A DNA stretch of 64,000 nt. It comes from Oscillospiraceae bacterium (GTDB lineage: Bacteria; Bacillota; Clostridia; Oscillospirales; Oscillospiraceae). The DNA is taken from contig JAFRIV010000023.1 of assembly GCA_017432615.1 (NCBI GenBank), positions 47,403-111,402 on the forward strand, written 5' to 3'. This document shows positions 1 through 21,702 of this stretch, piece by piece. Each line of letters starts with the position of its first letter. The stretch's first letter is position 1. The position numbers were made by a program, and so were the translations under genes. The notes below the pieces were generated by a model. That model saw only the letters and a list, made by a program, of their open reading frames with translations, made no database searches and was not told the DNA's origin.

Positions 1-789
1 CTGAACAGCCAGTTCCTCAAGCTGCTGCTGCTGTTCCTCCGTCAATGTGTCATACCAGGCACGCCCGCAGACAACAGAGCAGGTGAGCAGGAAGTGGTTT
101 GTACGGGAGATATTCTTGCATACTTCGTACATTCTCAGGCTGTAAATGGTCGGGATCTGCCATTCGCCGCCGTCAACTACTTTGGTCTGGATAGCATTAT
201 AGGCTTCGGCCTGGTTCAGTGCAGTTGCAATTGCGCCCATAGCATTGACGGAATTCACGGCAATTGCAGAACCCATGGTGCGGATCTTGAGGCCTGCAAG
301 ATCTTCCGGCTTTACGATTTCCTTATTGGTTACGTAATTCCGGAATCCGGTGATACCGTTGTTTGTCAAAAGGACGAGACCCTTGTCATAGAGAGCCTGC
401 TTCCACTGCGCATAGAGCTCAGTCTCAAGAAGTGTATCGATCTCATCATAGCTGTCGAACATGTAGGGCATCATCAGAATGCCGAACTCCGGCACATAGG
501 ATGCCAGACGGGCGGGGTCCGTTGCGGCAACAACACCGGCGCCGGCCAGCGCCTGCTCCAGAACGTCGTCGGTGGATCCCATTTCGGATGAGACCATTGC
601 AACCGCTTCAAAATTGCCGGTAGCATTCAGTGCTTCTGCAAAGTTCTCGTGTGCGATGGACTGTGTGTCACCCTTGCCGTTGGTTCCGGTGATGATGATC
701 GGCGTTGCCGCATAGGAACATGCGACGCAGGAAAAAACAACGGAGAGGACGATAACGAGTGCCAGGGTCTTAAAGAGTCTTTTTTTCAT
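1..789 (-). CDS. TRAP transporter solute-binding protein (DctP family), C-terminus cut by window edge
   Basis: The minus strand reads open from an ATG at 789 (ribosome site GGAGGTATCT) to the window edge, giving 263 residues. It has a hydrophobic signal peptide with Cys residues near its end (a possible but non-canonical lipobox), then a DctP-type receptor. The segment around KIRTMGSAIAVNSVNAMGA carries the family Arg that normally binds a substrate carboxylate. TRAP receptors deliver organic acids to DctQM membrane subunits, which must lie left of this window if they exist. It is last in a run of co-directional genes (activase, GRE, bicupin, ManA). A TATAAT-like box on the minus strand (846-851) could give it its own promoter. 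The family is clear; the substrate is unknown. Confidence 0.85.
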   Translation of the reverse strand, partial: MKKRLFKTLALVIVLSVVFSCVACSYAATPIIITGTNGKGDTQSIAHENFAEALNATGNFEAVAMVSSEMGSTDDVLEQALAGAGVVAATDPARLASYVPEFGILMMPYMFDSYDEIDTLLETELYAQWKQALYDKGLVLLTNNGITGFRNYVTNKEIVKPEDLAGLKIRTMGSAIAVNSVNAMGAIATALNQAEAYNAIQTKVVDGGEWQIPTIYSLRMYEVCKNISRTNHFLLTCSVVCGRAWYDTLTEEQQQQLEELAVQ

Positions 790-918: not shown

Positions 919-2007
919 TCAGCTTTTCGGTCCGAAGAATTGGAGAATTCTAAGGCCGTCTCCTCTTGAGGAGGAAATCGTCAGATTGCCGGTTTTAGCG
1001 GGAATGAAAAATTGTGCTGTTTTCTCCAACGGCAATACAGATGATTTGCAGGAAAGTTCCCCATCTCCGTCCAGAACGTAGAGCCCGCAGAAACTGTCGG
1101 ATCCTTCCAGCGTGATGCTGCTGTCCGTCCAAATCTCTTTCAGCATGAAATACGGCGTCCGATCATATCCTATCAGGGTTTTCACCCGTCCCCCTGGCAA
1201 ATTGAGAACGGAGGGGGGGATGAATCCTTTTTTGCGGATCTCCTCTCTGCTCATATCGGTATAATGGAAGACATCCAGCATTTTTTCAAACCCGATACCC
1301 TGATGGCACATACTGTCAGCTACAGGAAATCCGCTTGGAGTCGTTCGCTCGACACGTATGGTAAAGTCTGTCGGTTCCTGTATTTCCACGAGAAAACATC
1401 CGGAGCCGATTGCATGCGGCATCCCGCCTTCAATTAAAATCGTGTCGCCCGATTGAACGGCAAAACGCTGCATGGAAGAAAGCATACCGGGAATATCCTG
1501 CCGGTCAAACAGGTCTTTCCATTTTTCTCTGGTAACGCCCTCTTTGAAGCCATAATAGATGCAGGGTTCTTCCCCGCCGACTTCTCTTGCCTCAAGAATG
1601 TGCCAGCATTCCGTTTTTCCGTAGGGACTGTGGAAAAGCCTCTCTGCTGTCGGCCGGTCAGGATGGACTTGCAGAGTCAGCCTTTCTGCACTGTCGATCA
1701 GCTTGACCAGTACACCGGGGAAGGGCCCGTTTTTCGCAACAAAGGCTTCTCCCAGCATCCCGGAAGGGTCTGCTTCAATCTGCTCTTTCAGGGTTCTGCC
1801 GGTTTCCCGGATGTGGCTCATCCCTTCGTCTTTGATGTCCTCCCGACCTGCATTTCTCGCTGCCACGACGGACATGATCCACTCTTCCGGAAAATGTCCG
1901 TCTTCCCCGGGCAAAACTCCATGCAAGCGATCAAGTCCGGCTCCGCCCAGATAGGTTCGCCATGCCCTGGGATTATCCAGCCGAAGAGGATACTTCATCT
2001 TTTCCAT
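919..2007 (-). CDS. Class I mannose-6-phosphate isomerase family protein (ManA-like)
   Basis: A 362-residue cupin-fold isomerase of the ManA family, which normally interconverts mannose-6-phosphate and fructose-6-phosphate with one zinc ion. The metal ligands are present in the expected order: Gln113 and His115 in LTLQVHPD, Glu133 in GKTECW and His198 in GGMPHAIG. The start follows AAGGAT with 9 nt spacing. It lies 12 nt downstream of the bicupin gene and in the same direction as the GRE, so it is probably part of the GRE operon. Its substrate there may be a sugar phosphate or free sugar other than mannose-6-phosphate. The family call is firm; the exact substrate is inferred only. Confidence 0.85.
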   Translation of the reverse strand: MEKMKYPLRLDNPRAWRTYLGGAGLDRLHGVLPGEDGHFPEEWIMSVVAARNAGREDIKDEGMSHIRETGRTLKEQIEADPSGMLGEAFVAKNGPFPGVLVKLIDSAERLTLQVHPDRPTAERLFHSPYGKTECWHILEAREVGGEEPCIYYGFKEGVTREKWKDLFDRQDIPGMLSSMQRFAVQSGDTILIEGGMPHAIGSGCFLVEIQEPTDFTIRVERTTPSGFPVADSMCHQGIGFEKMLDVFHYTDMSREEIRKKGFIPPSVLNLPGGRVKTLIGYDRTPYFMLKEIWTDSSITLEGSDSFCGLYVLDGDGELSCKSSVLPLEKTAQFFIPAKTGNLTISSSRGDGLRILQFFGPKS

Positions 2008-2019
2008 AATGCAGTATCC

Positions 2020-2805
2020 TTACTCCAGCGTTTGCTTTTCCCCGGTAGGCTTGTGTACTTCGTCGAGGTATTCAACAGCCTGCTGCTTCAACTCCTGCGG
2101 AGTACAATCGATCCACAGATAATGCATTCGCTGGTCTCCGAGAGCAATCACGCCGTGATTGCTCCCCAAGGGAATATGCAGCAGGGTATTGCCCTTCATC
2201 GGACAGATCCGGCAGTCGATCAGAAGATTCATGTCATTTTCCGGGAAGCTGAAAAAGAACTGATCCAACAGGGGATGAGCGTGCATGCCGACAAGATCAT
2301 CACCCTTTGCTTCCACGCTGCCCATGGCAAAACGGGGAATGACAGACTGTTTTAGCAGTGCCCGGCTGATCGTTGTTTCACTTTTGAAAAAATCCCGATA
2401 CTGAAGAGCATCCCGATAAGCTTCACTGATGGGAAATTGGGTCGGGCTTGCATCAAGATCGGCAAGATCCTGCTCGTTTAATTCCCAGCGGATTTCAAGC
2501 AGGACGCTGTCTTCAGCCGCGGAAATTTGAATTCCGCTCTCCGGTTTTGCAACAAAGATGGCCTTTTCCGCGTATCGGAAGGTTTTGCTTTCTGCGGAGA
2601 AGGACAGACTTCCCTCGCAAAGGAAGAATATCCGGATAAATTCTCTCTGGCCCTCGAACGACAGGATATGCCCCTGCGGCAGATGATGGCAGAGCACCAG
2701 GGCCCCGGGAATTTCACCCGGCAGCATTGCACGGACATCGTATCCGCCTTCATGTTTTGGGAGAACTTCCATTTTGATATCGGACAGTTTTACAGGCAGT
2801 GCCAT
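2020..2805 (-). CDS. Uncharacterised bicupin protein
   Basis: A soluble 261-residue protein without a signal peptide. Two cupin-like halves can be seen. The N-terminal half has a weak beta-barrel pattern. The C-terminal half has MHAHPLLDQFFFSFP followed by HIPLGSNHGV, which resembles a cupin metal site with His residues and a later His. Size and layout recall IolB/KduI-type sugar-acid isomerases, but the motifs do not allow that assignment. It sits between the GRE (34 nt upstream) and ManA (12 nt downstream) and starts after a strong AAGGAGACAAACA site. Its function is unknown. A role as an isomerase, mutarotase or sensor of the GRE pathway substrate is inference. Confidence 0.7.
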   Translation of the reverse strand: MALPVKLSDIKMEVLPKHEGGYDVRAMLPGEIPGALVLCHHLPQGHILSFEGQREFIRIFFLCEGSLSFSAESKTFRYAEKAIFVAKPESGIQISAAEDSVLLEIRWELNEQDLADLDASPTQFPISEAYRDALQYRDFFKSETTISRALLKQSVIPRFAMGSVEAKGDDLVGMHAHPLLDQFFFSFPENDMNLLIDCRICPMKGNTLLHIPLGSNHGVIALGDQRMHYLWIDCTPQELKQQAVEYLDEVHKPTGEKQTLE

Positions 2806-2839: not shown

Positions 2840-5104
2840 TCAGCAGCCGCTGCTCGCACGCATTTCCGGCATAAGAGGATCGTCCCCGTTTACGGCAAGG
2901 ATCCTATCCACTACAAGCTGACGAAATTCAGGGCTCAGCATAGCAAAATAAGCCGTGAATCCGGTTACACGAACGACGAGATCCGGATATTTTGACGGAT
3001 CCTTGTGGGCTTCCAACACTTTGTGCTGATCTATGATATTGATGTTTAAAAGGGTGTTGCCGGTTTCCAGGATCGTGCGGATCATAGCGACCATCTTCTC
3101 GACGCCTTCCGGCGTGTTGGCGATCTTCGGGTCAAGCTCTAACTGGACAGGAGCACAGTTGCCGTAAAACGGCTGGACACTGGCAATGGAGTTCGCCATT
3201 GCTGTAACGGCACCGTCTTTCCGGAATCCGAAGGTCGGATTTGCCCCATGGTTGATGGCTTCCCCGTTATGTCTGCCGTTCGGTGTTGCACGGACATGGC
3301 TGCCGAATTCCAGCGTATTGGACCAGCTGAACCATCCGGGAATAAACTGAATTTCAGAATAAGCAGGATCAAGTGCCCGGATTTTCGGAACCATACTCCG
3401 GACAAGGTTGCTGAACAGCTCGTTGATCCGGACGGCCCAATGATCTGCAAGCGTATCTCCTCCGCAGTAACGTTCACTGTGGAGCATCATCTGACGGATA
3501 TATTCTCCGTCAATATCGTGCCAGTCGAGATCCATCTGCCGGGTCAGGGCTTCCCAGGTGATTTTTCCTTCTTTTTCGATCCGCTGCTCACAGGCGGCAA
3601 AGCTGTCTGCCACGGTCCCTATTCCGGCGCCATCCATACACATGTTGAAATAACGGGCACTCTTTGTGACGTCTGCTCCCTCCTCAACCGGGCCCCGGCT
3701 CAACAGATTACAGATCAACTCAGGTTCATTCTTGTCCTGATTATGCAGATGGAAGAGGATCCCCCTCGCCGTGGTATCCACCGCACGCTCCAGATGTTTG
3801 GCAAACTTCTGCCAAAGTATTTCCGTGCTTGGAGGTGTCTGGGCGGCCTCCCGCATCATTTCTGTATAGGCGACTTCAAATACCTTTGCAGTATTGATTT
3901 TTACAAGATCGTTCAGGGTATATTCCATGCCGGGAATACTCATCCAATGGCATCCGGCAGCCAGACGTTTTCTTGCAAGATTTTTATCATATCCGAGACG
4001 CATGAAGCCGTTTACCAGGCTGTTGTCTCCGGAAAAACGAGGCCAGGCGTTTTTGTTTTTGAACAGATACCAGACACTCTTGCGGAAGAAGTCCTCATTC
4101 ATGTTGTCGTGAACACGGACGGTCAGGTTGCAGGCAATGTTGATCCAGTCAGCTGCTTCCAGAATCAGATAGCTGATGTGCGTTGCCATATCGTTGCCGT
4201 TGTCATCGGGACCTGCCAGCTGATAATAGCGGGTATCATTCAGGAAGAGACAGGCAATGTAGAATTTTGCCGTCTCATCATCCAGGATCCCTTCGGCGAT
4301 ATCATGCTCATAGAACGGGCGAAGCAGCTCATCCAGCTGCCCGCCGGACGGCCCGCGGTTGTAAAGCCGACTGAAGAAGCTGAACCAGCACATCCATTGG
4401 ATGCATTCGCGCAGAGTTTCCGGCTGACCTTCCGCCATTTTTTCATTGCATGCCGCCATCTCTTTGAGATTTTGCCGGAGATAGGGATTCTGTTCCTCCT
4501 CTGCAAGAGCGGCAATTTCACCGGCAATACGGTGCAGGAAAGAGATAATATGCTCTACGACCATGATTTCGCTTTTGTAGAATTCTTCGTGCTCAGGGCC
4601 GTTGTTGATCTTCCGGTATTTTTTCAGTTTCTCCAGAATGCCTCCCCAGCCCATGGAAAATCCCATCCGAAGATCCGGTGTGAAATGTCCGTCTGAGCCG
4701 ATCCCGCACACAATGTTGTACTCGTCAAACGCTTCTTTCAGGTCGTCATAAGGGAGATCCGGATTCCATATGGCACCTTTCTGCCGCGTCATGAAAAAGA
4801 ATCCTCTTCCGACAAAGGCATCCAACGGATCGCAGTAGAGCGGGTGTTCGTCCAGCAGCTTACAGTAATTGGTGCGCCAGCCTTCATAACCGTAGTAACT
4901 GCCGTTTTTATTGTTGGGGATAAACTCAAAATGAAAATCGTCCGGCGGAACGACCCTTCCGTAATCATCCTCGTCCAGCCCGCCTTCCATTTCAATCTTT
5001 TCTTCCGTCTGACGAAGCTTGCGCGCTTTCAGAAGGCGGATCCTCTTATCCAGCGTGAATTCTTCTTCTGGTGAAAATTCATTGATAAACTGAATCTGTC
5101 CCAT
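2840..5104 (-). CDS. Glycyl radical enzyme of the pyruvate formate-lyase superfamily, non-canonical active site
   Basis: This 754-residue protein has the GRE fold. The C-terminal glycyl radical loop reads RVTGFTAYF, with Gly715 as the radical carrier. The thiyl cysteine is most likely Cys385 in AAGCHWMSIPG. The Cys-to-Gly distance of 330 residues matches the spacing known for choline lyase and hydroxyproline dehydratase types. Those GREs carry GCVE, with Glu as the general base; here the motif is GCHW, so the Glu is missing. Other family blocks are present: DGAGIGTVADSFAA (about 491-504) and ATPNGRHNGEAINHGANP (about 606-623). The activase gene is 14 nt upstream, and a bicupin, a ManA homologue and a TRAP receptor follow. 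The enzyme acts anaerobically in the cytoplasm. The reaction cannot be assigned; it is not a typical pyruvate formate-lyase (no CC pair) nor a GCVE eliminase. Confidence 0.9.
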   Translation of the reverse strand: MGQIQFINEFSPEEEFTLDKRIRLLKARKLRQTEEKIEMEGGLDEDDYGRVVPPDDFHFEFIPNNKNGSYYGYEGWRTNYCKLLDEHPLYCDPLDAFVGRGFFFMTRQKGAIWNPDLPYDDLKEAFDEYNIVCGIGSDGHFTPDLRMGFSMGWGGILEKLKKYRKINNGPEHEEFYKSEIMVVEHIISFLHRIAGEIAALAEEEQNPYLRQNLKEMAACNEKMAEGQPETLRECIQWMCWFSFFSRLYNRGPSGGQLDELLRPFYEHDIAEGILDDETAKFYIACLFLNDTRYYQLAGPDDNGNDMATHISYLILEAADWINIACNLTVRVHDNMNEDFFRKSVWYLFKNKNAWPRFSGDNSLVNGFMRLGYDKNLARKRLAAGCHWMSIPGMEYTLNDLVKINTAKVFEVAYTEMMREAAQTPPSTEILWQKFAKHLERAVDTTARGILFHLHNQDKNEPELICNLLSRGPVEEGADVTKSARYFNMCMDGAGIGTVADSFAACEQRIEKEGKITWEALTRQMDLDWHDIDGEYIRQMMLHSERYCGGDTLADHWAVRINELFSNLVRSMVPKIRALDPAYSEIQFIPGWFSWSNTLEFGSHVRATPNGRHNGEAINHGANPTFGFRKDGAVTAMANSIASVQPFYGNCAPVQLELDPKIANTPEGVEKMVAMIRTILETGNTLLNINIIDQHKVLEAHKDPSKYPDLVVRVTGFTAYFAMLSPEFRQLVVDRILAVNGDDPLMPEMRASSGC

Positions 5105-5118
5105 ATCTGCCTCCTTTT

Positions 5119-6039
5119 TTATTCTTCAGCACGGACAATGATCCCGGCTTTTTCGGCGATTGCTTTTAATTCCTCGACGCGGACCTTCGGGAGCGGCCTT
5201 GCCTCTGCAAAGGGATTCTTTTTCTTCAGGCTCTGATATTTTGTGTCGCCAAGAGGGTTAAAGTTCAGAAGCTCATAGTAAAGCAGGGAACCATTGCTGT
5301 CAACTTCCTTCAGGAAAGCTGCAATAGCGGCAATATTCTCGTTGGAATCCGTCGCACCGGGGATCAGCGGAGTGCGGACGATAAAGGGGGTTCCGCTTTT
5401 TGCAAGGGAAGCAATAGAGGCTTTGATCGTAGTATTATCTGCCCCTGTCCATTTGCGGTGCGATGTGCTGTCATCGATCTTCAGATCGCACATTACAAGG
5501 TCTAATTTACGAATAAAGGATTCGATCTCTTCCCAGGGGAAATTCAGGTTGCTCTCTATAGCCACTTTGATCCCGTTTTCATGGCAGGCGTCTACGATAC
5601 CTTCCGCAAACTCTCTCTGGCAAAGAACTTCTCCGCCGGAAAGAGTCACGCCTCCGCCACTGGTCAGATAATAGGGTTTGTCCTGCAATACTTCATGCAT
5701 GACTTCGGCAACCGTCATCTTTTTGCCGCTGATCGCCATTGCCCCTGCGTAGCAGATTTCCGCACATTTTCCGCACTTTACACACAAATTCGGATAATAC
5801 ATATGAATGTTGTTGATCCGTTTCTGAGCTTTGCAGGGACAGGCATACACACACTTGTAACAACTGATACATTTTGAGGCATAATAATGCAAATCCCGCT
5901 TCATGCTGATGGTTTCAGGATTATGGCACCATGCGCAGTTCATGTTGCAGCCTTTAAAAAAAACTGTCGTGCGAATTCCGGGGCCGTCATTTAAAGCGAA
6001 CCGTTCAATTTCTGTAATCATGCCTTCCGTCGTACTCAT
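5119..6039 (-). CDS. Glycyl radical enzyme activating protein (radical SAM, PflA-like)
   Basis: A 306-residue radical SAM activase that would abstract a hydrogen from Gly715 of the adjacent GRE. The SAM-cluster motif CNMNCAWC has Cys31, Cys35 and Cys38. It is followed by an inserted two-cluster ferredoxin domain (Cys57, 60, 63, 67 and Cys86, 89, 92, 96), as found in activases of the larger GRE group. GGGVTLSGGE is the family's SAM-binding region. The gene is first in the minus-strand operon, 14 nt before the GRE. The start is slightly uncertain: ATG at 6039 directly abuts AAGGAG, and a second ATG seven codons in (MITEIERF) is a possible alternative. Confidence 0.92.
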   Translation of the reverse strand: MSTTEGMITEIERFALNDGPGIRTTVFFKGCNMNCAWCHNPETISMKRDLHYYASKCISCYKCVYACPCKAQKRINNIHMYYPNLCVKCGKCAEICYAGAMAISGKKMTVAEVMHEVLQDKPYYLTSGGGVTLSGGEVLCQREFAEGIVDACHENGIKVAIESNLNFPWEEIESFIRKLDLVMCDLKIDDSTSHRKWTGADNTTIKASIASLAKSGTPFIVRTPLIPGATDSNENIAAIAAFLKEVDSNGSLLYYELLNFNPLGDTKYQSLKKKNPFAEARPLPKVRVEELKAIAEKAGIIVRAEE

Positions 6040-6993: not shown

Positions 6994-7971
6994 ATGAAGA
7001 AAATTTTTGCAATGATCCTCGCACTCTGCATGGTGTTTGCGCTTTGCGCTGCTGCATCGGCAGATAAAACGTATGAGCTCAAGCTCTCCACCACGCAGAC
7101 AGATACCTCCATGATCTATGCAGGTATGAAAGCTGCAGCAGACAAGATTTTTGAAGACACCGATGGCCATGTGAAGGTAACGATCTATCCGTCCAGCCAG
7201 CTTGGCGCAGAGGAAGACATGATCGACCAGGCCCTGCAGGGAATGAACATTGCCGTTCTCACGGATGCAGGCCGTCTTTCCAGCTATGTCCATGATATGG
7301 GCATTATGAATATGGCCTACTTTGTCAACAACTACGATGACGGCTGCAAAGTCATGGCAACGGACACTTTCAAGGGCTGGGATGAAGCGCTTGCAGCAGA
7401 AGGGCTCCGCGGCCTCTGCTACAACTACTATGACGGTGCACGTTCTTTCTGCGGCCATGCCGCATGGACGAAGCCGGAAGATCTCAAAGGCGTTGTGATT
7501 CGGACTCCCGGTGCAGCCCCCTACTCCAAGTCCATTGAAGCTCTCGGTGCAACGGCTTATAACATCGGCTGGGGTGAAGTGTACAACAGCATCCAGACGA
7601 AGGCAATCGACGGCTGTGAAGCCCAGTTTACCTCTCTTGTCTCCAGCAAGATCTATGAAGTCTGTGAATACTGCAGCAAGACCGAGCATATCAACCTCTT
7701 CAACATGGTCGTCTGCGGCGAACAGTGGTTCAATACCCTGCCGGAAGAATATCAGGAGATCGTGAAGAAGGACTTCTATGATTGCGCTTATGAGTCTGCA
7801 AAGGCAGTGGAAGCCGCTCAGGATGAGATGGCACAGATCCTGACCGACAACGGTATGCAGATCGTTGAGGTCGACCGTCCTGCATTTGAAGAGGCTGCAA
7901 AAGTCGCTTACGAACAGCTTGGCTGGACGGAACTCCGCGAACAGCTCTATAAGGAAGCAGGAATCGAATAA
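6994..7971 (+). CDS. dctP: TRAP transporter solute-binding protein, DctP family
   Basis: A 325-residue periplasmic-type receptor with a clear signal peptide (MKKIFAMILALCMVFALCAAASA). The DctP fold includes VVIRTPGAAPYSKSIEALGA; the Arg in this block usually clamps a substrate carboxylate. It is the first gene of dctP-dctQ-dctM-uxuA-gntR, which predicts a hexuronate or aldonate as substrate, since the genes downstream degrade mannonate. The start follows AAAGGAGGAAATT. A strong stem-loop after the stop (8013-8044) may stabilise the dctP message so that the receptor is made in excess over the membrane subunits. Confidence 0.93.
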   Translation: MKKIFAMILALCMVFALCAAASADKTYELKLSTTQTDTSMIYAGMKAAADKIFEDTDGHVKVTIYPSSQLGAEEDMIDQALQGMNIAVLTDAGRLSSYVHDMGIMNMAYFVNNYDDGCKVMATDTFKGWDEALAAEGLRGLCYNYYDGARSFCGHAAWTKPEDLKGVVIRTPGAAPYSKSIEALGATAYNIGWGEVYNSIQTKAIDGCEAQFTSLVSSKIYEVCEYCSKTEHINLFNMVVCGEQWFNTLPEEYQEIVKKDFYDCAYESAKAVEAAQDEMAQILTDNGMQIVEVDRPAFEEAAKVAYEQLGWTELREQLYKEAGIE

Positions 7972-8012
7972 GGACTGACTGGCGGTTTTTGTTGCATCAA
8001 CAATACCAGGAA

Positions 8013-8044
8013 GGGGATATCTCCCGAACAGGGTGATATCCCCC
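8013..8044 (+). terminator. Intercistronic stem-loop between dctP and dctQ
   Basis: GGGGATATC pairs with GATATCCCC, with a smaller inner CCC/GGG stem. No long T-run follows, so it is more likely a partial terminator or 3'-end stabiliser than a full stop. This is common behind binding-protein genes. Confidence 0.6.
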
Positions 8045-8066
8045 TTTAAGAATTGAGGGAAAACCT

Positions 8067-8570
8067 ATGAAAAAAATTTATCGGGCCTTCTGCAAGTTTG
8101 AAGAGGTCCTTGCCATGTGCCTGTTGGGCGGGCTTGCGGCGCTGGTATTTATTTCAGCATTGATGCGCACGCTCAAGCATCCGTTAAACTGGGCACAGGA
8201 TGTGGCATTGGTTGCTTTTGCCTGGCTGATTTTCTTCGGCAGCGACATCGCCGTGCGCGGTTCCGGGCTGATCGGCATTGATATGTTGGTCAAACGCTTT
8301 CCCCCGAAAGTGCAGAAAGCGATCGACATAGTTTTCAAGATCATGATCCTTGTTTTTCTCTGCATTCTGGTCTACTACGGAATCATTATGACAAAAACAG
8401 GCTGGAAGCGTCAGATTACCGCACTGGAGATCAGCTACGGCTGGGTGACAATGGCCGTACCCACCGGGGCCTTTTTCATGATCATTTCTACAGCGATTAA
8501 GCTGATCGAGCGCATCAGAACGCCTGCCGATCAGGAGATCAAGAAAGAAGCGGGGAGGGAGCTTGCCTGA
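8067..8570 (+). CDS. dctQ: TRAP transporter small membrane subunit, DctQ family
   Basis: A 167-residue protein with four hydrophobic segments, as expected for DctQ. The family-typical WAQDVALVAFAWLIFFGSDIAVR lies in the second segment. It would couple the receptor to the DctM channel and help form the sodium-driven importer in the cytoplasmic membrane. Its stop overlaps the dctM start (TGATG), so the two are translationally coupled. The start follows TTGAGGGAAAACCT. Assignment is by family pattern and position between dctP and dctM. Confidence 0.9.
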   Translation: MKKIYRAFCKFEEVLAMCLLGGLAALVFISALMRTLKHPLNWAQDVALVAFAWLIFFGSDIAVRGSGLIGIDMLVKRFPPKVQKAIDIVFKIMILVFLCILVYYGIIMTKTGWKRQITALEISYGWVTMAVPTGAFFMIISTAIKLIERIRTPADQEIKKEAGRELA

Positions 8571-9850
8571 TGTATTACGCAATTCTTGTTTTTCTCGTGC
8601 TGCTGTTTCTCGGTATGCCGGTTGCTTTTTCCATCGGTATCAGCGGCCTTTCTTTCTTCCTGATCCGCGGCCTCCCGCTGACAGTTCTGGTTCAGAAGTC
8701 TATTTCAACTTCCCAGAGTTTCACTATGCTTGCTATTCCGCTTTTTATCCTGGCAGGCAATCTGATGAATTCCTGTGGGATCACCAAACGTCTGACGCGT
8801 TTTTGCAATGCCTGCACCGGGCATATGTGGGGCAACATGGGGCAGGTCTCCTGCCTGCTCAGCACGCTGATGGGAGGCGTCTCCGGCTCAGCAGCAGCTG
8901 ATGCTGCTATGGAAACGCGTATCCTCGGCCCGGAAATGCTGCGTTTGGGATATTCCAGAGGCTGGGCTGCCGCCATTAACGGGCTCTCAGGCCTGATTGT
9001 GGCAACCATTCCGCCCAGCATGGGTCTGATCATCTTCGGTACAGTGGGAGAGGTATCCATCGGGCGTCTGTTCATGGCAGGCTGGGTACCGGGGATCCTG
9101 ATGTGCATACTTCTGATGCTGGCGACTACCTGGAGTGCCCGCCACTTCGGATATAAACCGGAACACGACAGACCGGCTCCGTTCAAAGAGATCCTTTCCT
9201 CCTTCCTCGAGAGCGTCTGGGCCATGCTTTTCCCGATCCTTCTCATTGTGCTGATCCGCTTTGGCGTGATGAGCCCCACGGAATCCGGATCCTTTGCCTG
9301 TGCGTATGCGCTGCTGGTAGGCTGTGTGATCTACAGAGATCTGACCTGGAAGACGTTTATTCAGACATTGCGCGACAGTGTGAAGGACGTGACGGTCATT
9401 ACCATTATCCTCGCATTTTCCGGGGTGTTCGGCTATGGAGTGGTCTATGACGACATTACCGTTTCCATTGCAAATTCTCTGACGGCTATGACTTCCAATC
9501 CGACGATCCTTCTCGTCCTTGTCGTGATTTTCCTGGCTATTTGCGGCATGTTCATGGAAACGACGGTCATTGCTTTGATTCTGACACCGATCCTTCTTCC
9601 GGTCATGCGGAACATCGGGGTAAACGAAGTCGTGTTCGGTATGATCATGATGACGACGGTAACATTCGGGGTAATGACACCTCCTGTCGGAGTTGCACTC
9701 TATTCCGTCTCGGATATCATGGGATGCCCGGTGGAAGAGACCTTCCGCTACGGCTGGCCGTTTTACCTGGCTGTTGTGCTGGTGATCCTGTTCATGATCT
9801 TCTTTCCCAATGCAGTCCTCTGGCTGCCGAATCTGGTCTACGGAGCCTGA
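8570..9850 (+). CDS. dctM: TRAP transporter large membrane subunit, DctM family
   Basis: A 426-residue polytopic protein with about 11-12 hydrophobic segments. It has typical DctM features such as LLSTLMGGVSGSAAADAA and IPPSMGLIIFGTVGEVSIGRLF. It forms the sodium/substrate path of the importer. The start codon overlaps the dctQ stop, and the stop lies 3 nt before uxuA, so uptake and catabolism are co-transcribed. Full length for the family. Confidence 0.93.
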   Translation: MYYAILVFLVLLFLGMPVAFSIGISGLSFFLIRGLPLTVLVQKSISTSQSFTMLAIPLFILAGNLMNSCGITKRLTRFCNACTGHMWGNMGQVSCLLSTLMGGVSGSAAADAAMETRILGPEMLRLGYSRGWAAAINGLSGLIVATIPPSMGLIIFGTVGEVSIGRLFMAGWVPGILMCILLMLATTWSARHFGYKPEHDRPAPFKEILSSFLESVWAMLFPILLIVLIRFGVMSPTESGSFACAYALLVGCVIYRDLTWKTFIQTLRDSVKDVTVITIILAFSGVFGYGVVYDDITVSIANSLTAMTSNPTILLVLVVIFLAICGMFMETTVIALILTPILLPVMRNIGVNEVVFGMIMMTTVTFGVMTPPVGVALYSVSDIMGCPVEETFRYGWPFYLAVVLVILFMIFFPNAVLWLPNLVYGA

Positions 9851-9853
9851 AAA

Positions 9854-10924
9854 ATGAAAATGACTTTTCGCTGGTTCGGGGAAAACAGTGATACGGTTTC
9901 TCTGAAGCAGATTCGACAGATCCCCGGGGTTTCGGGGATTATGGGTTTTCTGGATTACAAGGCAGCCGGTGAGGTCTGGGAGGAAAGCGAGATCAAACGA
10001 TTCGTTGATCAGGTACACCGTGCCGGGCTTGCCTGTGAAGTGATCGAATCGGTGAATGTACACGAAGATATCAAACTCGGGCTCCCGACACGGGACAGGT
10101 ACATTGCAAATTACTGTGAAACGATTCGGAACCTTGCCAAATACGGGATCAAAGTCATCATTTACAATTTCATGCCGGTCTTCGATTGGCTTCGGACGGA
10201 CCTTGCACACGAAATTCCGGAAGACGGTTCTAACAGCATGTATTATGATGAGAAAGAGCTGGCGGGACTTTCCGTGATGGACCTGGTCCGCAGCATGGAG
10301 GGCGGCAGCAACGGTTTTTCTCTCCCGGGCTGGGAACCGGAACGCGTGAAGGAACTGGAAAAGACGCTTTCCCTGTATGACGGGTTAACGCAGGAGGATC
10401 TGCTGACCCATTTTCGGTATTTCCTGGATGGGATCCTGCCTACCTGTGAAGAGTGCGGAGTAAAAATGGCCTGCCATCCGGACGATCCCTGCTGGCCGAT
10501 TTTCGGTCTGCCGCGCGTCGGATACAATCAATACTGGTTCGACAGGATCATGTCGCTCAACTCCTCACCCTGCAATACGATCTGTCTCTGTACAGGGTCA
10601 CTCGGTTCTAATCGGGAAAACGATGTACCCGCCATGATTCGCCATTTTGGAGAACAGAACAGGATCAGCTGTATGCATATCCGGAACATTCGTTTTTACG
10701 GTGAGCGAAAATTCCGAGAGGCAGCACATAACAGCTGTGACGGCGATTTTGACATGTTTGCAATTGTAAAAGCTATGCATGATGTCTGCCCGGATGTATA
10801 TGTCCGTCCGGATCACGGGCGTATGATCTGGGGAGAGACGGGACGCCCGGGCTACGGGCTCTATGATCGGGCCTTAGGCACACAGTATCTGATGGGAATG
10901 TATGAGGCAATTTGTAGAAGCTGA
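9854..10924 (+). CDS. uxuA: Mannonate dehydratase, first copy
   Basis: A 356-residue TIM-barrel enzyme that converts D-mannonate to 2-keto-3-deoxygluconate (KDG) in the cytoplasm. Recognisable family blocks include the N-terminal MTFRWFGENSDTVSLKQIRQ, VIESVNVHEDIKLG, NFMPVFDWLRTDL, the metal-site CHPDDP, CMHIRNI and VRPDHGRMIWGE. It starts 3 nt after dctM behind GGAG. The gntR regulator gene follows 18 nt later. A second copy is at 31991; the two clearly share architecture but differ along their length. Confidence 0.95.
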   Translation: MKMTFRWFGENSDTVSLKQIRQIPGVSGIMGFLDYKAAGEVWEESEIKRFVDQVHRAGLACEVIESVNVHEDIKLGLPTRDRYIANYCETIRNLAKYGIKVIIYNFMPVFDWLRTDLAHEIPEDGSNSMYYDEKELAGLSVMDLVRSMEGGSNGFSLPGWEPERVKELEKTLSLYDGLTQEDLLTHFRYFLDGILPTCEECGVKMACHPDDPCWPIFGLPRVGYNQYWFDRIMSLNSSPCNTICLCTGSLGSNRENDVPAMIRHFGEQNRISCMHIRNIRFYGERKFREAAHNSCDGDFDMFAIVKAMHDVCPDVYVRPDHGRMIWGETGRPGYGLYDRALGTQYLMGMYEAICRS

Positions 10925-11787: not shown

Positions 11788-11842
11788 AGGTTTTAGAAAA
11801 TCGAAGCAATTCCCACGGATGAACAAAAAAAGGAGAGTTATC

Positions 11843-12922
11843 ATGACAACAAAACTCAGGGAAAACTGCAAATATGCGATTGCCTGCGTCACGAGCATGG
11901 GCGTTCGCATCACCCCGGAGGACAGGATGTCCGTGCACAACAGCGATCATTTTTATCTTCAGGCTACAAGCGCAGAGACAAATGTGCTCAACATTGCGTC
12001 TTCTCTCGGCTATCCCTGCCTTTGCATGACGCGCTTTGTGGAAGGAAGCCCGATTGCCGCCTTTATCAAGGCAAAACTTCGGGCAAGAAACATTGCCTTT
12101 GAAGGGCCGGATATCCCGCAGGGCGGTCCCTGGGGATACCGTCATCAGTTCAATATAGCCGACTCCGGCTTTGGGATGCGTGCGCCGCGCGTCTGGAATG
12201 ACAGAGCGGGGGAAATCGGCAGGACGATCTCTCCGGATGATTTTGACCTGGAACGGATCTTTGGCCGGGAAGGTGTAGGGATCCTGCATATCTCCGGTTT
12301 GATTGCCGCAATGAGTGAACAGACAACGAAGACCTGCCTTCGCCTTGCGGAGGTTGCCAAACAGTATGGCACACTTGTCAGTTTTGATCTGAACTACCGT
12401 GCTACCTTCTGGAAAGGGCGGGAAGAGGAGCTGAGCGCAGCATTTCGGAAGATTGCTTCAGCAGCCGATGTGCTGATAGGCAATGAGGAGGATTTTCAGC
12501 TTTGCCTTGGTTTTAAGGGGCCGGAGGCAGGAGGAAAAGACCTCGCTTCCAAAATTGACAGTTTCAAAGGAATGATCGACCAGGTGCGGGCAGCATATCC
12601 GAATGCGATTGCCTATGCCACCTCCCTGCGTCAGGTTATTTCGGCAAATGAGCATCTCTGGGGAGCCATCATGTGGGCAGATGGAGAATGGTTCGTAGAG
12701 GAACCACGGCCTATCCCGGTCATGGATCGCATCGGCGGGGGCGACGGTTTTTCCGGCGGCATTCTTTATGCCATTTACAGAGGCTGGGAGGCTTCCAAGT
12801 GGGTTCAGTTCGGTTGGGCGACGGGTGTGCTGGCCGCCTGCAGCCTGAATGATTATGCCGAGCCGGCGGATGAAAAGCAGGTATGGGATATCTATGCCGG
12901 AAATGCCAGGGTGCAGAGATAA
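11843..12922 (+). CDS. kdgK: PfkB family sugar kinase, probable 2-keto-3-deoxygluconate kinase
   Basis: A 359-residue ribokinase/PfkB-family enzyme. The C-terminal signature DRIGGGDGFSGG holds the catalytic Asp and anion hole, and VSFDLNYRATFW is the family mid-block. In this context (mannonate dehydratases, fructuronate reductase) it would phosphorylate KDG to KDPG for an aldolase that is not in the window. The start at 11843 is chosen for AGGAG with 7 nt spacing; an in-frame ATG 24 nt upstream lacks a site. It heads the kdgK-gnd-larA-uxuB operon. KDG specificity rests on context. Confidence 0.85.
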   Translation: MTTKLRENCKYAIACVTSMGVRITPEDRMSVHNSDHFYLQATSAETNVLNIASSLGYPCLCMTRFVEGSPIAAFIKAKLRARNIAFEGPDIPQGGPWGYRHQFNIADSGFGMRAPRVWNDRAGEIGRTISPDDFDLERIFGREGVGILHISGLIAAMSEQTTKTCLRLAEVAKQYGTLVSFDLNYRATFWKGREEELSAAFRKIASAADVLIGNEEDFQLCLGFKGPEAGGKDLASKIDSFKGMIDQVRAAYPNAIAYATSLRQVISANEHLWGAIMWADGEWFVEEPRPIPVMDRIGGGDGFSGGILYAIYRGWEASKWVQFGWATGVLAACSLNDYAEPADEKQVWDIYAGNARVQR

Positions 12923-14408: not shown

Positions 14409-15683
14409 ATGGATATTTTTAAAATTTCCGACAGGGAGGAAGGACTCAGCCGGGAAGAAATACGATTTGCTCTCCTGGAAGCGCTGAAAGGCAGGACCCT
14501 GAAAAAAGTGCTGATTCTCCCGCCTGATTTTACCCGCTTTCATTCCAATGCCGGGCTCATTACCAACATCTGCTATCATGAGCTGAAAGAAAAAGGGGTC
14601 CAGGTCGATATTATGCCCGCCCTCGGGACACATGCGCCGATGTCGGAAGAACAGGTACGCACCATGTATGGGGATCTTCCTTTTGATCAGTTTCTGGTCC
14701 ATGACTGGCGGCACGATGTTGTAAAACTCGGCGAGGTTCCGGGGACATATCTGGCTGAAATTACGGAAGGGCTCTGGACGGAGCCCGTGAGTGTAGAAGT
14801 CAATCGCCGCGTGATGGATCCAAGCTATGACCTCATTCTGTCTCCCGGGCAGGTGGTGCCCCATGAAGTGATCGGCATGTCGAATCACGCAAAGAATCTC
14901 TTCGTCGGAGTCGGCGGGAGCGATATGATCAATAAATCACATATGGTCGGCGCAGTTTACGGGATGGAGCGCATGATGGGGAAAGATAACACCCCGGTAC
15001 GAAAAATCTTCGACTATGGGATGGAGCATTTCCTGAAAGACAGGCCGATCCTCTTTGCACTGACCGTTACAACGGCTCCGGGAGGAAGGATCCGCACACA
15101 CGGACTTTTCATCGGAGAAGGCCGGGAGTGCCTTACGCAGGCAGTAAAACTGGCACAGCAGAAGAATATCGATTTTGTTGAGCACGGTCTGAAAAAATGT
15201 GTTGTGTATCTCGATCCGTCGGAATTCAGAAGCACCTGGCTCGGCAATAAAGCCATTTACCGCACGCGTATGGCAATGGCAGATGGAGGAGACCTTGTCA
15301 TCCTTGCTCCCGGGGTGGAACGCTTCGGGGAGGATGATCAATGTGATGCGCTGATCCGTAAATATGGCTACCGCGGACGGATCCATACACTGGAAGAATT
15401 TAAAAAGCCGGAAAACACCGACCTTCGGGAAAATATGGGCGCAGCTGCTCATCTGATCCACGGCTCTTCTGACGGAAGATTTTCCATTACCTATGCGGTG
15501 AAAAACATTTCGAAAGAAGAGATAGCAGGGGTAGGTTTTCTCCCAGAAGATTATGATAAGCTCGCCGCGCGGTATGATCCCGCAAAGCTTGCTTACGGAT
15601 ACAACACCCTTCCGGACGGAGAGGAGATCTACTATATTCCCAATCCGGCACTCGGTCTCTGGATCAACCGGGAAAAGTTCTGA
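14409..15683 (+). CDS. LarA-family nickel-pincer hydroxyacid racemase/epimerase homologue
   Basis: This 424-residue protein keeps the LarA catalytic set. PPDFTR lies at 38-43, and His75 in GTHAPMSEEQ corresponds to LarA His108. His152 in VPHEVIGMS, Lys162 in HAKN and His178 in NKSH have exactly the 10 and 26 residue spacing of LarA His174, Lys184 and His200, which bind the nickel-pincer cofactor. LarA homologues racemise 2-hydroxyacids, and some are reported to be gluconate 2-epimerases. Between gnd and uxuB, interconversion of gluconate and mannonate is the most sensible role. The start at 14409 follows TAAGGAAAAGAAT. larB, larC and larE, needed to make the cofactor, are not in the window. 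Confidence 0.88.
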   Translation: MDIFKISDREEGLSREEIRFALLEALKGRTLKKVLILPPDFTRFHSNAGLITNICYHELKEKGVQVDIMPALGTHAPMSEEQVRTMYGDLPFDQFLVHDWRHDVVKLGEVPGTYLAEITEGLWTEPVSVEVNRRVMDPSYDLILSPGQVVPHEVIGMSNHAKNLFVGVGGSDMINKSHMVGAVYGMERMMGKDNTPVRKIFDYGMEHFLKDRPILFALTVTTAPGGRIRTHGLFIGEGRECLTQAVKLAQQKNIDFVEHGLKKCVVYLDPSEFRSTWLGNKAIYRTRMAMADGGDLVILAPGVERFGEDDQCDALIRKYGYRGRIHTLEEFKKPENTDLRENMGAAAHLIHGSSDGRFSITYAVKNISKEEIAGVGFLPEDYDKLAARYDPAKLAYGYNTLPDGEEIYYIPNPALGLWINREKF

Positions 15684-15710: not shown

Positions 15711-17255
15711 ATGATTTTAAACGAACAAGGCCTGAAGGAGCGCTCTTCCTGGGAGGAAAAGGGCTACGCCCTCCCGCAGTATGATCGGCAGGCAATGGTG
15801 GAAAAAACGAAAGCTGCCCCGACCTGGCTGCACTTCGGAGCGGGCAACATCTTCAAGGCATTTCAGGCAGATGCCATGCAGCGCCTGCTGAATGCCAATG
15901 AGGCAGAGAAGGGAATCATCGCTGCAGAGCGCCGTGAAAAAAAGCCCATCACGTCTGATAACTATACGATCAAAGTAACCCTGAAAGCCGATGGAACGGT
16001 GGAAAAAACGGTAGTCGGCAGTATTGCGGAAACGGTTTACCTCTATGGCAATGAAGCACGCCTGAAAGAGATCTTTGAAAATCCGTCTCTGCAGATGGTC
16101 AGCTTCACCATCACGGAAAAGGGCTACAGCCTCAAAGACGGCCAGGGGGAATACCTGCCCGATGTGGCAGCGGATCTCGCAGCCGGGCCGGAAAAGGCGA
16201 CAAGCTACATGGGAAAACTCACCGCCCTGCTCTGTGCCCGCTACCTTAAAAACCGCCAACCGCTGGCCATGGTCAGCATGGACAACTGTTCCCACAACGG
16301 GGATAAGCTGAAAGCCGCCGTCACTACATTTGCCCGGGCATGGGGCGGCGAGGGGTTTAATGCCTGGCTGGCGGAAAGCGTTACATTCCCCTGGTCCATG
16401 ATCGACAAGATCACCCCGGGACCGGACGCTTCCGTGGCAGCCATACTGGAGAAAGACGGCCTTGCTCCCGGAACACCCTTTGTCAATGCTGAGGAATGTG
16501 AGTACCTCGTCATTGAGGACAGCTTCCCCAACGGCCGTCCTCCGCTGGAGAAAGCAGGCATTTACTTCACTGATCGGGAGACGGTGGATAAGGTGGAGCG
16601 CATGAAGGTATGCACCTGCCTCAATCCGCTGCATACGTCTCTTGCAGTGTACGGGTGCCTGCTGGGTTACCAGCATATCTGGCAGGAGATGCAGGATGAG
16701 GATCTGAAAAATCTTGTTTATACCATAGGGTATAAGGAAGGCCTCCCCGTGGTTACAGATCCCGGCATTATCCATCCGAAAGATTTTATCGATGCCGTTC
16801 TGCAGATCCGCGTGCCCAACCCCTTCATGCCGGATACACCGCAGCGCATTGCAACCGATACCTCGCAGAAGCTTCCGATCCGTTTCGGAGAAACGATCAA
16901 AGCCTATCAGGCATCCGATACGCTGCAGGTCGGGGATCTGAAGCTGATCCCGCTGGTATTTGCAGGCTGGCTGCGTTATTTGATGGCAGTGGACGATACG
17001 GGCAACTCCTTTGAGCCGAGTCCGGATCCGCTTCTTTCTACCGCACAGCCCTATGTGGCGGCTTTCCGCCTTGGAGAAGTACCTCCGCGGGAGGAGATCT
17101 TTGCAAAAGTGGAAGGTTTGCTGCGCAATGCAACCATCTTCGGCGTGGATCTGGTGCAGGCAGGACTTTCGGAGAAGGTCTGCGGTTACTTTGCGGAGCT
17201 GATTGCCGGCCCTGGTGCCGTACGCGCTACTTTGCACAAATATACAAAAGAATAA
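15711..17255 (+). CDS. uxuB: Fructuronate reductase / mannitol dehydrogenase family oxidoreductase
   Basis: A 514-residue polyol-specific long-chain dehydrogenase. The N-terminal nucleotide domain has LHFGAGNIFKAFQ, and the C-terminal domain has CTCLNPLHTSLAVYGCLLG with the catalytic-region His. In uronate pathways this enzyme reduces D-fructuronate to D-mannonate with NADH, directly feeding UxuA. Altronate (tagaturonate) or mannitol specificity cannot be excluded from sequence alone. It is last in the kdgK operon, starts behind AAAGGAGTCAAAGGAACC, and is followed by a terminator hairpin at 17307-17330. Confidence 0.9.
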   Translation: MILNEQGLKERSSWEEKGYALPQYDRQAMVEKTKAAPTWLHFGAGNIFKAFQADAMQRLLNANEAEKGIIAAERREKKPITSDNYTIKVTLKADGTVEKTVVGSIAETVYLYGNEARLKEIFENPSLQMVSFTITEKGYSLKDGQGEYLPDVAADLAAGPEKATSYMGKLTALLCARYLKNRQPLAMVSMDNCSHNGDKLKAAVTTFARAWGGEGFNAWLAESVTFPWSMIDKITPGPDASVAAILEKDGLAPGTPFVNAEECEYLVIEDSFPNGRPPLEKAGIYFTDRETVDKVERMKVCTCLNPLHTSLAVYGCLLGYQHIWQEMQDEDLKNLVYTIGYKEGLPVVTDPGIIHPKDFIDAVLQIRVPNPFMPDTPQRIATDTSQKLPIRFGETIKAYQASDTLQVGDLKLIPLVFAGWLRYLMAVDDTGNSFEPSPDPLLSTAQPYVAAFRLGEVPPREEIFAKVEGLLRNATIFGVDLVQAGLSEKVCGYFAELIAGPGAVRATLHKYTKE

Positions 17256-18157: not shown

Positions 18158-19744
18158 TTAATCCGCAAGAGAAGGCCATTTCTGCATGGCTTCCTCCATA
18201 GTCATACCGGAGGCAATGCCTGCTTTACGGGATGCATTAACAGCCTGGATCTCTTTCATCTTGGCACCTGTCAGGCTGTATCCGCTCATGGCCCAGAGCG
18301 TTGCGGCCCAGGCCAGCATCGGGATGATACAGAACATGACGATAACGGCTGCCTTGATGCCGGAGGAATACGGCGTGGCGTCTGTCGGCAGTTCAGAAAG
18401 CCCGGCAAAAATCAGGAACAGAAACGCAACAAGAGTCTGTGCCAGCGAGGAGACCAGCTTATCCACCAGAGAAAACAGCGTGCCCATAATACCCGGGATA
18501 TATTTTCCAGAGCGGTATGTTTCATAGTCAGAGCAGTCAGCCACCATAGGGATGGGCATGTCCGCTGTAGCATAATAGGCACCGTAGCCCACACCGAAAA
18601 ACAGGATAAAGAGGATCGTGTACAGGTTGATCGCTCCGCCGCCGCTGAAGGGGAAAGCAAGCATCGTAGCGGGATTTTCATGGTTGGAGAAAATCAGCAG
18701 AACAAGCACGCCAACATAGCAGATCAGCGCCACAGCCACATAACGCGTCAGGGAGGCTTTCTGACCGAGCTTCTGGGAGGTCCTTACAGACAGAAGGAAG
18801 AATGGTACGGCGAATACATAACCAAGGATCATCATCGGCAGGTAAAGGCTGTTGTAGTTGCTCATCATGATCCCGTACAAAGCCAGAAGCACGGTGGTGT
18901 TGGTCGCTATGGCCAGTGCCAGCTTACAGCCGGCTCCTGCGACCATCAGGCGCTTCATGGGCTTGTTGTTTTTAATGATCTCCGCATATTCGGAGAATTT
19001 GACTTTTTCCTGCTGACCGCCGATACCGTAATACTCCGGGCGGTCCTTTTCTGCAATGCCGATGATCGCCAGCACCGTCAGGGCAACAGACACGGCAATG
19101 CCGATGGGAGTGATGATCCGGTAGAGCTCCGGGCGGGCATAGCCGGAAGTAATAACAGTGCCCACAGCGTCTTTGACGTCAAAACGACCTTTGACCAACG
19201 GGATCAGGAACTGCATCACGCCCATGCCCAGCATGGAGCCGATGGTATTGAATATGGTGAACATCGGGCGCTGGTTCGGGTCGTTGGTCAGCACCGTCTG
19301 CCCGGCTCTGGTGCAGGAAGTCTGGAAAGTATAGCCGATGACCCAGATGGCGTAGACGAGGGTAAAGAGGACATAGCGCAGCCACATCATCGTTTCAGGG
19401 ATGAAAGGGGTAAGAATATAAAGTGCCACAACGCTGACAGCCATAATTGCGCTGCCGATCATCATGAATGGGCGGAACTTTCCGATCCTGGTGGAAGTGC
19501 GATCCATCAGTGCGCCGATGATCGGGTCGGTGACGGCATCAAAGACACGCATAATGGTCACCATCAGGGACGCATAGATCCCAAGCTTCAGAACACTGGA
19601 CCCGAACTGTGCCACATAGGAGAGGATCAGAACAAAATAGACGTTGGTTGCTCCGTTATTGAGGGGAAACAGTACCAGCTGGTAAAGCTTGGCACGGTTG
19701 AGCCCGTCAGATGATGCGGCAGATCTCTTTTTTACATCACTCAT
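18158..19744 (-). CDS. Glycoside-pentoside-hexuronide (GPH) family sugar:cation symporter
   Basis: A polytopic MFS transporter of about 528 residues with MelB/UidB-like features: MRVFDAVTDPIIGALMDRT in the second to third helix region and the loop RTRIGKFRPF-like TSTRIGKFRPFMMI. It would import a glycoside or hexuronide with a cation. It directly follows the GH2 glycosidase gene, whose stop overlaps its ribosome site. The start is ambiguous between adjacent ATGs at 19747 and 19744; AAGGAG spacing favours 19744. Substrate is probably the oligosaccharide or glucuronide cut by the GH2 enzyme. Confidence 0.88.
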   Translation of the reverse strand: MSDVKKRSAASSDGLNRAKLYQLVLFPLNNGATNVYFVLILSYVAQFGSSVLKLGIYASLMVTIMRVFDAVTDPIIGALMDRTSTRIGKFRPFMMIGSAIMAVSVVALYILTPFIPETMMWLRYVLFTLVYAIWVIGYTFQTSCTRAGQTVLTNDPNQRPMFTIFNTIGSMLGMGVMQFLIPLVKGRFDVKDAVGTVITSGYARPELYRIITPIGIAVSVALTVLAIIGIAEKDRPEYYGIGGQQEKVKFSEYAEIIKNNKPMKRLMVAGAGCKLALAIATNTTVLLALYGIMMSNYNSLYLPMMILGYVFAVPFFLLSVRTSQKLGQKASLTRYVAVALICYVGVLVLLIFSNHENPATMLAFPFSGGGAINLYTILFILFFGVGYGAYYATADMPIPMVADCSDYETYRSGKYIPGIMGTLFSLVDKLVSSLAQTLVAFLFLIFAGLSELPTDATPYSSGIKAAVIVMFCIIPMLAWAATLWAMSGYSLTGAKMKEIQAVNASRKAGIASGMTMEEAMQKWPSLAD

Positions 19745-19748
19745 CATG

Positions 19749-21671: not shown

Positions 21672-21702
21672 TGATGTCACCTCGTTTCTCGGAGAAGGCG
21701 CC

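Follow-up and report, generated by a model that had tools for sequence, protein, structure and literature searches.

Introduction

Which foods are open to anaerobic bacteria of the gut and rumen is decided by the chemistry of glycyl radical enzymes (GREs). For the eliminases among them, the available text of two papers proposes that a cysteine thiyl radical abstracts a hydrogen atom, the glutamate of a Cys-x-Glu motif takes the hydroxyl proton and the resulting ketyl radical expels the leaving group; no activity was detected for the E470Q variant of IslA or the E436Q variant of HypD (trans-4-hydroxy-L-proline dehydratase), and the Cys-x-Glu base is common to the characterised eliminases treated there (PMC8473560, PMC7077986). 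A role in tuning this glutamate is proposed for His160 of HypD (PMC7077986). Here we describe a GRE encoded in a 64,000-nucleotide stretch of an Oscillospiraceae bacterium genome (assembly GCA_017432615.1, contig JAFRIV010000023.1, positions 47,403 to 111,402; hereinafter designated the window). As read from the sequence, the locus has an intact GRE core, a predicted activase next to it, Trp in place of Glu two residues after the catalytic cysteine (Cys+2) and a conserved operon. The family to which it belongs (hereinafter designated Cys-x-Trp) offers a direct test of whether an eliminase can relocate its base or do without one.

Sugar-type substrates have been assigned to two Escherichia coli relatives: according to the available part of a review (PMC12441222), PflD cleaves 1,5-anhydromannitol-6-phosphate and YbiW the glucitol analogue.

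Results

An intact GRE with tryptophan in the catalytic loop

The reading frame spans exactly positions 2840-5104 on the minus strand and comprises 754 codons, with an ATG start and no internal stops; read forward in one translated frame, the same interval holds five stops. The product matches the Pfam domains PFL-like (285.4 bits, cut-off 24.3) and Gly_radical (54.1 bits, cut-off 22.2), which places it in the GRE superfamily. Cys385 lies within RKRLAAGCHWMSIPGMEY and Gly715 within RVTGFTAYF. An earlier note on this DNA had put the two residues 330 positions apart, a spacing that we confirm and that ranges from 320 to 330 across the 17 rows of a family alignment (the window protein and 16 relatives, 25-86% identical to it, from Bacillota, Spirochaetota and Bacteroidota) and from 311 to 345 when every one of the 52 measured rows is counted, including three with Thr in the Gly column. 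The note's choice of catalytic cysteine holds as well: profile alignments match the family Cys to that of CutC and of PflD, and the family Trp to the glutamate in the Cys-x-Glu motif of these two enzymes.

Trp occupies Cys+2 in 17/17 family rows and in 0/35 other GREs (34 distinct sequences, L025 being identical to L064), so the eliminase Cys-x-Glu motif, as given in the available text of PMC8473560 and PMC7077986, is replaced throughout the family. The comparison set is non-random: it consists of nine named records and 26 high-scoring matches from genomes of one family, the latter being L045 plus 25 of 39 candidate loci after omission of near-copies and partial sequences (L007, L010, L014, L015, L016, L018, L019, L023, L028, L057, L059, L062, L065 and L066). 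Its Cys+2 residues are Glu (17), Asp (10), Ile (3), Ser (2), Val (2) and Gly (1). Within the family the residue between Cys and Trp may be His, Ser, Asn or Gln; the motif is therefore Cys-x-Trp rather than GCHW, and while the Trp of the motif first proposed stands, its His deserves no special weight. The relative L035, kept out of the GRE alignments by a split reading frame, reads GCSW in its visible piece.

Other positions are equally constant. By alignment column, Glu394 (Cys+9) is found in all 17 family rows and 1/35 others, 16 of those 35 being gapped there; counted plainly along the chains, Glu stands at Cys+9 in 17/17 and 2/35, HypD being one of the two. Asp399 (Cys+14), which we take to be the counterpart of Asp447 in glycerol dehydratase, is kept in 17/17 family rows and 5/35 others, and Glu462 in 17/17 and none. 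His619 likewise separates the family (17/17) from the comparison set (0/35), where 31 rows have Asp or Glu. The column of His140 is His in every family row and in 18/35 others. Trp387, Glu394 and Asp399 are also among the invariant positions of alignment A1, the profile of 10 near relatives with the window protein included. An AlphaFold model of the GRE built from A1 had a mean predicted local distance difference test score (pLDDT) of 47.5, with the Cys loop (residues 339-402) below 50, and was discarded.

The Cys-x-Trp proteins form a separate branch

For the trees, the columns of residues 385-399 were taken out, which removed the motif region. In a quick tree of 51 rows, the 17 Cys-x-Trp rows are all united by a branch with Shimodaira-Hasegawa-like approximate likelihood-ratio (SH-aLRT) support of 96. 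A careful tree of 42 rows, from which nine further near-copies had been taken (two of them Cys-x-Trp rows), holds the 15 retained family rows together with bootstrap 100 and SH-aLRT 97, and the grouping recurs in 100% of 200 bootstrap trees. CutC, HypD, PflD and YbiW fall across the branch in both trees; PflB was removed from both, and the characterised GREs represented are a limited set, with glycerol dehydratase, IslA, the decarboxylases and the succinate synthases among those left out. As the trees are unrooted, the word clade presumes a root outside the family. Within it, the three proteins of genomes G021 and G242 are set apart from the other 14 members in the quick tree.

Twelve NCBIfam GRE families match the window protein at E <= 0.001, all below their curated cut-offs, the best being the subfamily model TIGR01774 (216.9 bits against 678.2). 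Among the open-licence PMC papers listed, judged by titles and abstract openings and with subscription papers mostly outside the collection, we recognised none on a Cys-x-Trp GRE. The suggestion of an uncharacterised GRE class thus gains support, from both the lack of clustering with CutC, HypD, PflD or YbiW and the lack of an NCBIfam equivalog near its cut-off, and the Cys-x-Trp proteins almost certainly constitute a new GRE subfamily.

The comparison GREs show variation of their own at Cys+2. Ten of the 35 rows have Asp there, in GCLD or GCVD motifs (L006, L009, L011, L017, L020, L026, L030, L056, L058 and L061). Others have no acid: L021 and L079 (GCVVPH), which group with CutC in the quick tree, L027 (GCVIPG) and L063 (GCAGSI). 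In three proteins from the window's taxonomic family, L022, L024 and L060, Thr replaces the radical Gly and the Cys lies in GCFIHT or GCNSPS; they resemble the threonyl radical enzymes described in the available text of PMC11528403.

A rare and scattered family

A scan of one genome per species across 84,980 species, based on short peptide patterns that detect close relatives only, returned 10 proteins with 75-86% identity over the best segment. Their sources are Lachnospiraceae and other Clostridia, Clostridium citroniae and Chakrabartyella piscis among them, and two bins assigned to Spirochaetota. Deeper relatives are 58% (G653), 47% (G622), 25-26% (G021, two copies) and 25% (G242) identical to the window GRE, and two Bacteroidota members sit on plasmid-labelled replicons, in Flammeovirga kamogawensis (51%) and Persicobacter psychrovividus (49%). 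Members are thus known in four named species.

Of 300 genomes from the window's family, 154 contain some match to query P0001 used alone; once the gene of the window itself is set aside, the top three matches score 222, 208 and 186 bits and are Cys-x-Trp proteins, and the remainder reached at most 155. Across 398 genomes from the phylum, two further members (1130.7 and 778.0 bits) were found with the narrow profile A1 (E <= 1e-80), and the wider profile A2 (E <= 1e-130), which includes five of the deeper members that it re-finds, returned the same two. These counts are lower bounds, because at most the best two or three candidates per genome were scored in the large sets. Among viral contigs, 22 pattern matches yielded no relative by tblastn. 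In the genomes searched, the family is rare and scattered. The window protein is 75-77% identical to those of the two Spirochaetota bins and shares their gene order, the ManA-like gene being seen in one of the two, which suggests horizontal transfer between the lineages.

The operon and its neighbours

The activase gene lies 14 bases upstream of the GRE gene (Table 1). Of the 17 aligned family members, 16 have a radical SAM activase next to them; none was found on the 12.4-kb contig L043. For the window clade we compared 11 loci (the window and L032-L041), of which two, L033 (7.5 kb) and L040 (4.9 kb), lie on contigs too short to inform on distant genes. The order activase-GRE-cupin-ManA recurs, with activase and cupin in 11/11 loci and the ManA-like gene in 10/11 (unseen in L039); L035 has a Gfo/Idh-like piece between the cupin and ManA genes. 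Motif and neighbours are therefore conserved together in one clade, which is a check that the earlier note had proposed.

Table 1 Features of the window discussed in the text
Feature	Position	Strand	Basis
GRE, Cys-x-Trp subfamily, 754 aa	2840..5104	minus	ORF, domain matches, alignments
Gly384-Cys385-His386-Trp387 codons: predicted catalytic Cys and Trp at Cys+2	3944..3955	minus	computed position, alignments
Glu394 codon (Cys+9), invariant in 17 family rows; candidate relocated base	3923..3925	minus	alignments
Asp399 codon (Cys+14), invariant in 17 family rows; candidate substrate contact	3908..3910	minus	alignments
His619 codon, invariant in 17 family rows; mostly Asp/Glu in comparison GREs	3248..3250	minus	alignment
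Gly715 codon, predicted glycyl radical site	2960..2962	minus	sequence position
GRE-activating radical SAM enzyme with ferredoxin-type domains	5119..6039	minus	TIGR02494 317.9 bits (cut-off 174.35)
Bicupin, conserved partner, H-x-H-x4-Q...H pattern	2020..2805	minus	
Class I mannose-6-phosphate-isomerase-like protein (ManA-like)	919..2007	minus	below TIGR00218 cut-off
TRAP solute-binding protein DctP, continuing past the left edge	1..789	minus	
Second TRAP transporter DctP-DctQ-DctM, divergent neighbour	6994..9850	plus	
UxuA mannonate dehydratase	9854..10924	plus	NF003027 441.3 bits (cut-off 191); TIGR00695 342.4 bits (cut-off 199.55)
PfkB-family kinase, distantly 2-keto-3-deoxygluconate-kinase-like	11819..12922	plus	below curated cut-offs
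Mannitol-dehydrogenase-family protein	15711..17255	plus	49% identical to UxuB-like protein of L036

A fold search with the bicupin returned generic cupins, KduI and IolB among them and neither singled out. The ManA-like protein scores 83.6 bits against TIGR00218 (cut-off 116.2), and its best solved relative is 1qwr at 56.5 bits. The tripartite ATP-independent periplasmic (TRAP) transporter gene DctP runs across the left edge of the window; beyond that edge the same strand continues with DctQ, DctM, an AraC gene and a Gfo/Idh gene. TRAP genes are present at the window locus and at 7/10 relatives' loci (8/11 in all; at 7 kb in L037), an AraC-family gene at the window and 8/10, and a Gfo/Idh-type oxidoreductase at the window and 6/10 (weak in L037, 76 bits). 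Since TRAP transporters carry mostly carboxylates, an acid would be the natural substrate.

Uronate genes lie close to some of these operons. A divergent cluster in the window comprises the second TRAP transporter, UxuA, a GntR-type regulator, the PfkB kinase, a 6-phosphogluconate-dehydrogenase-type protein, a LarA-domain protein and the mannitol-dehydrogenase-family protein. In L036 and L038 the GRE operon is preceded by TRAP genes and by genes for UxuA, a Gfo/Idh protein, a UxuB-like member of the mannitol dehydrogenase family that stays below the curated cut-offs, and the glucuronate isomerase UxaC, which was identified in L036 by Pfam UxaC (642.5 bits) and NF002794 (570.1 bits, cut-off 387) and in L038 by similarity. 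UxuA thus occurs in 3/11 window-clade loci, and UxaC with a UxuB-like protein precedes the GRE operon in 2/10 relatives' loci.

Some further genes of these regions may bear on sugar metabolism. The LarA-type protein of the UxuA cluster (14430-15683, plus strand) has a lactate racemase N-terminal domain (51.1 bits); LarA homologues include sugar-acid 2-epimerases, and this one may supply mannonate to UxuA. A second UxuA-type mannonate dehydratase (31991-33082, plus strand, 493.1 bits) lies far from the first, and a glycoside hydrolase (GH) of family GH2, possibly glucuronide-related, adjoins an MFS_2 sugar transporter (18158-21680, minus strand). A glucosamine-6-phosphate-isomerase/6-phosphogluconolactonase-like gene is found near the operon in L036 (15091-15900), L037 (8015-8767) and L038 (17028-17768).

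Outside the window clade the neighbourhoods change. GH130 lies near the GRE gene in three of the four members at 47-58% identity: it adjoins the gene in G622, where it scores 492.8 bits against a cut-off of 450 for beta-1,2-mannobiose phosphorylase, and is within 9 kb in both Bacteroidota loci. The core of the Flammeovirga region consists of the activase, the GRE and a protein of 136 residues with similarity to PDB 3d0j (60 bits) and weak similarity to a cupin (E 0.005). Annotated around it are GH92 (18 kb off), SusC/D, a sodium symporter, a sulfatase, GH130 (6 kb ahead of the GRE) and GH47. In Persicobacter, GH130 (8 kb before the GRE), a GH5-type protein, a symporter and GH47 are followed by the same trio; GH47 is at most two genes from the GRE in both. 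G653 has an activase and reading frames that, judged by eye, look like a ribose-type ABC transporter. G242 has TRAP genes, a ribokinase (336.8 bits, cut-off 299.65) and an activase, and in G021 a GH28 protein is encoded two genes upstream of one GRE copy. The neighbourhoods of these deeper members point to sugars, to which the window clade adds an acid.

Discussion

The explanation that we put forward, tentatively and with confidence a little short of even, is that the Cys-x-Trp protein is an oxygen-sensitive GRE that opens or trims a sugar acid. That the substrate is a sugar or sugar acid is probable; that the reaction is C-O cleavage rather than another radical reaction is plausible but falls just below an even chance; that the base has been relocated to Glu394 or His619 is rather doubtful. 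On this proposal, the TRAP transporter would import a hexuronate-like or aldonate-like acid and the activase would form the glycyl radical on Gly715. The radical would move to a thiyl on Cys385, which would take a hydrogen atom from a sugar C-H while Trp387 stacks on the sugar ring. Glu394, in the same loop, and/or His619 would accept the hydroxyl proton in place of the lost Cys-x-Glu glutamate, a neighbouring C-O bond would break, and the carbonyl product would be isomerised by the cupin and ManA-like partners, in some hosts joining the fructuronate-mannonate-2-keto-3-deoxygluconate route. The operon suggests an anaerobic sugar-acid route, of which we found no description among the open-licence papers listed.

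Elimination with a relocated base is possible because Glu at Cys+9 and His619 are kept in all 17 family rows; since the base could have moved, the earlier expectation that the reaction should differ from both the Cys-x-Glu eliminases and pyruvate formate-lyase is not established. C-O cleavage of a sugar is the best single guess in view of the gapless match to the PflD loop, the mannoside neighbours and the PflD and YbiW reactions given in the available part of the review (PMC12441222). Several points weigh against this proposal. With the structural model unusable, the positions of Trp387, Glu394 and His619 relative to a substrate are conjectural. Outside the family, Glu at Cys+9 coexists with Glu at Cys+2 (in HypD and one other protein), and 16/35 comparison rows are gapped in the alignment column of Glu394. 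The Cys-x-Glu glutamate is essential in IslA and HypD according to the available text of PMC8473560 and PMC7077986, so its loss argues against ordinary elimination. Sugar contexts vary by branch (TRAP and uronate genes, mannoside genes, ribokinase), with UxuA in 3/11 and UxaC in 2/11 window-clade loci, so a single common reaction is not assured; nor does gene neighbourhood by itself demonstrate a reaction.

The loss of the base may instead mean that none is needed. In a radical isomerase, epimerase or C-C lyase that acts on a sugar acid without a base, the thiyl would take a hydrogen atom, the carbon radical would invert, rearrange or split a C-C bond, and the hydrogen would be returned, which makes the Glu base unnecessary. 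Its absence from 17/17 family rows fits such an enzyme, as do the two cupin partners downstream in the operon, possible sugar isomerases that would suit an isomerisation series; but the invariant Glu394 and His619 could act as a base, and we know of no GRE epimerase that would serve as precedent. PflD, the second-best structural match, moreover cleaves a C-O bond according to the available part of the review (PMC12441222), and we regard a non-eliminating enzyme as unlikely. A broader proposal, possible though the balance of probability is against it, is that a family devoid of the Cys-x-Glu base employs Glu394 and His619, in a pocket lined by Trp, to carry out a radical reaction novel to GREs on an unphosphorylated sugar acid, such as uronate epimerisation or C-C cleavage, within a dedicated anaerobic pathway of gut, termite-type and marine bacteria.

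It is also conceivable that the loop change is cosmetic and that the protein is an ordinary lyase of the PflD/YbiW type acting on a cyclic polyol or its phosphate. The match to PflD through the Cys loop, which is gapless and shares both PG and the Cys+14 Asp, and the mannose-related neighbours of three deeper members would agree with this, given the anhydromannitol-phosphate substrate assigned to PflD in the available part of PMC12441222. PflD and YbiW nevertheless fall outside the Cys-x-Trp branch, the Glu is missing from the Cys loop, and the transporter genes observed near the window clade are of the TRAP type, although no search was aimed at a phosphotransferase system; such a lyase is improbable. 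Most improbable of all is a catalytically dead or structural paralogue. It would account for the loss of a residue essential in relatives (PMC8473560, PMC7077986, available text), but Cys385, Gly715 and the activase are retained, identity is 75-86% across two phyla, and this gene is the sole PFL-like match in the window genome (87% complete).

Two specific substrates were considered and dropped. A 4-O-methylglucuronate lyase fits the TRAP and uronate genes and the plant-fibre hosts and conflicts with the mannoside neighbours; for a mannose-1-phosphate lyase beside GH130, the neighbourhood was the sole support.

Comparison with characterised GREs

Among solved structures, the family profile matches choline trimethylamine-lyase CutC best (PDB 9f3w, 354.4 bits; 22% identity to the window GRE), an eliminase that has Cys-x-Glu where the window GRE has Cys-x-Trp. 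The B12-independent glycerol dehydratase (PDB 1r8w), also a Cys-x-Glu eliminase, ranks fourth at 330.5 bits, the alignment of the catalytic cysteine described above being for CutC and not for this enzyme. The profile matches X-succinate synthases and arylacetate decarboxylases less well (8iof, annotated as BSS, 273.4 bits; 7e7l 253.0; MasD 210.6; TutD 182.1). Pyruvate formate-lyase PflB has a Cys-Cys pair in its row, where the window GRE has Gly384-Cys385, and its model TIGR01255 gives 53.2 bits against a cut-off of 994.2.

With the HypD model, whose cut-off is 1100 bits, the window GRE reaches 159.1. Two residues of the family recur in the HypD row from Enterococcus gilvus: His in the column of His140, presumably His160 of the enzyme in PMC7077986, and Glu at Cys+9. 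The enzyme of that paper, according to the available text, uses an essential Cys434-Val435-Glu436, whereas the window GRE has Trp at the Glu position. Aminoacyl radical enzymes, described in the available text of PMC11528403 as non-canonical GRE homologues without an assigned reaction, have Ala, Ser or Thr in place of the radical Gly. The Gly715 column is Gly in 17/17 family rows, and the oddity of the window GRE lies at Cys+2 instead.

PflD (PDB 8yjo) is the second-best solved structure at 346.2 bits, and YbiW (PDB 8yjn, 8id7) reaches 322 bits; the window GRE is 21% identical to each. Both have Cys-x-Glu, as against Cys-x-Trp with Glu at Cys+9 in the window GRE, which groups with neither in the trees. 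The family Cys loop, of the type GCxWxSIPGxEYTLND, nonetheless aligns without gaps to the PflD loop GCVELSIPGRTYGLHD and shares with it SIPG and the Asp at Cys+14. The sugar-type substrate assigned to PflD and YbiW in the available part of PMC12441222 is also the type that we infer for the window GRE.

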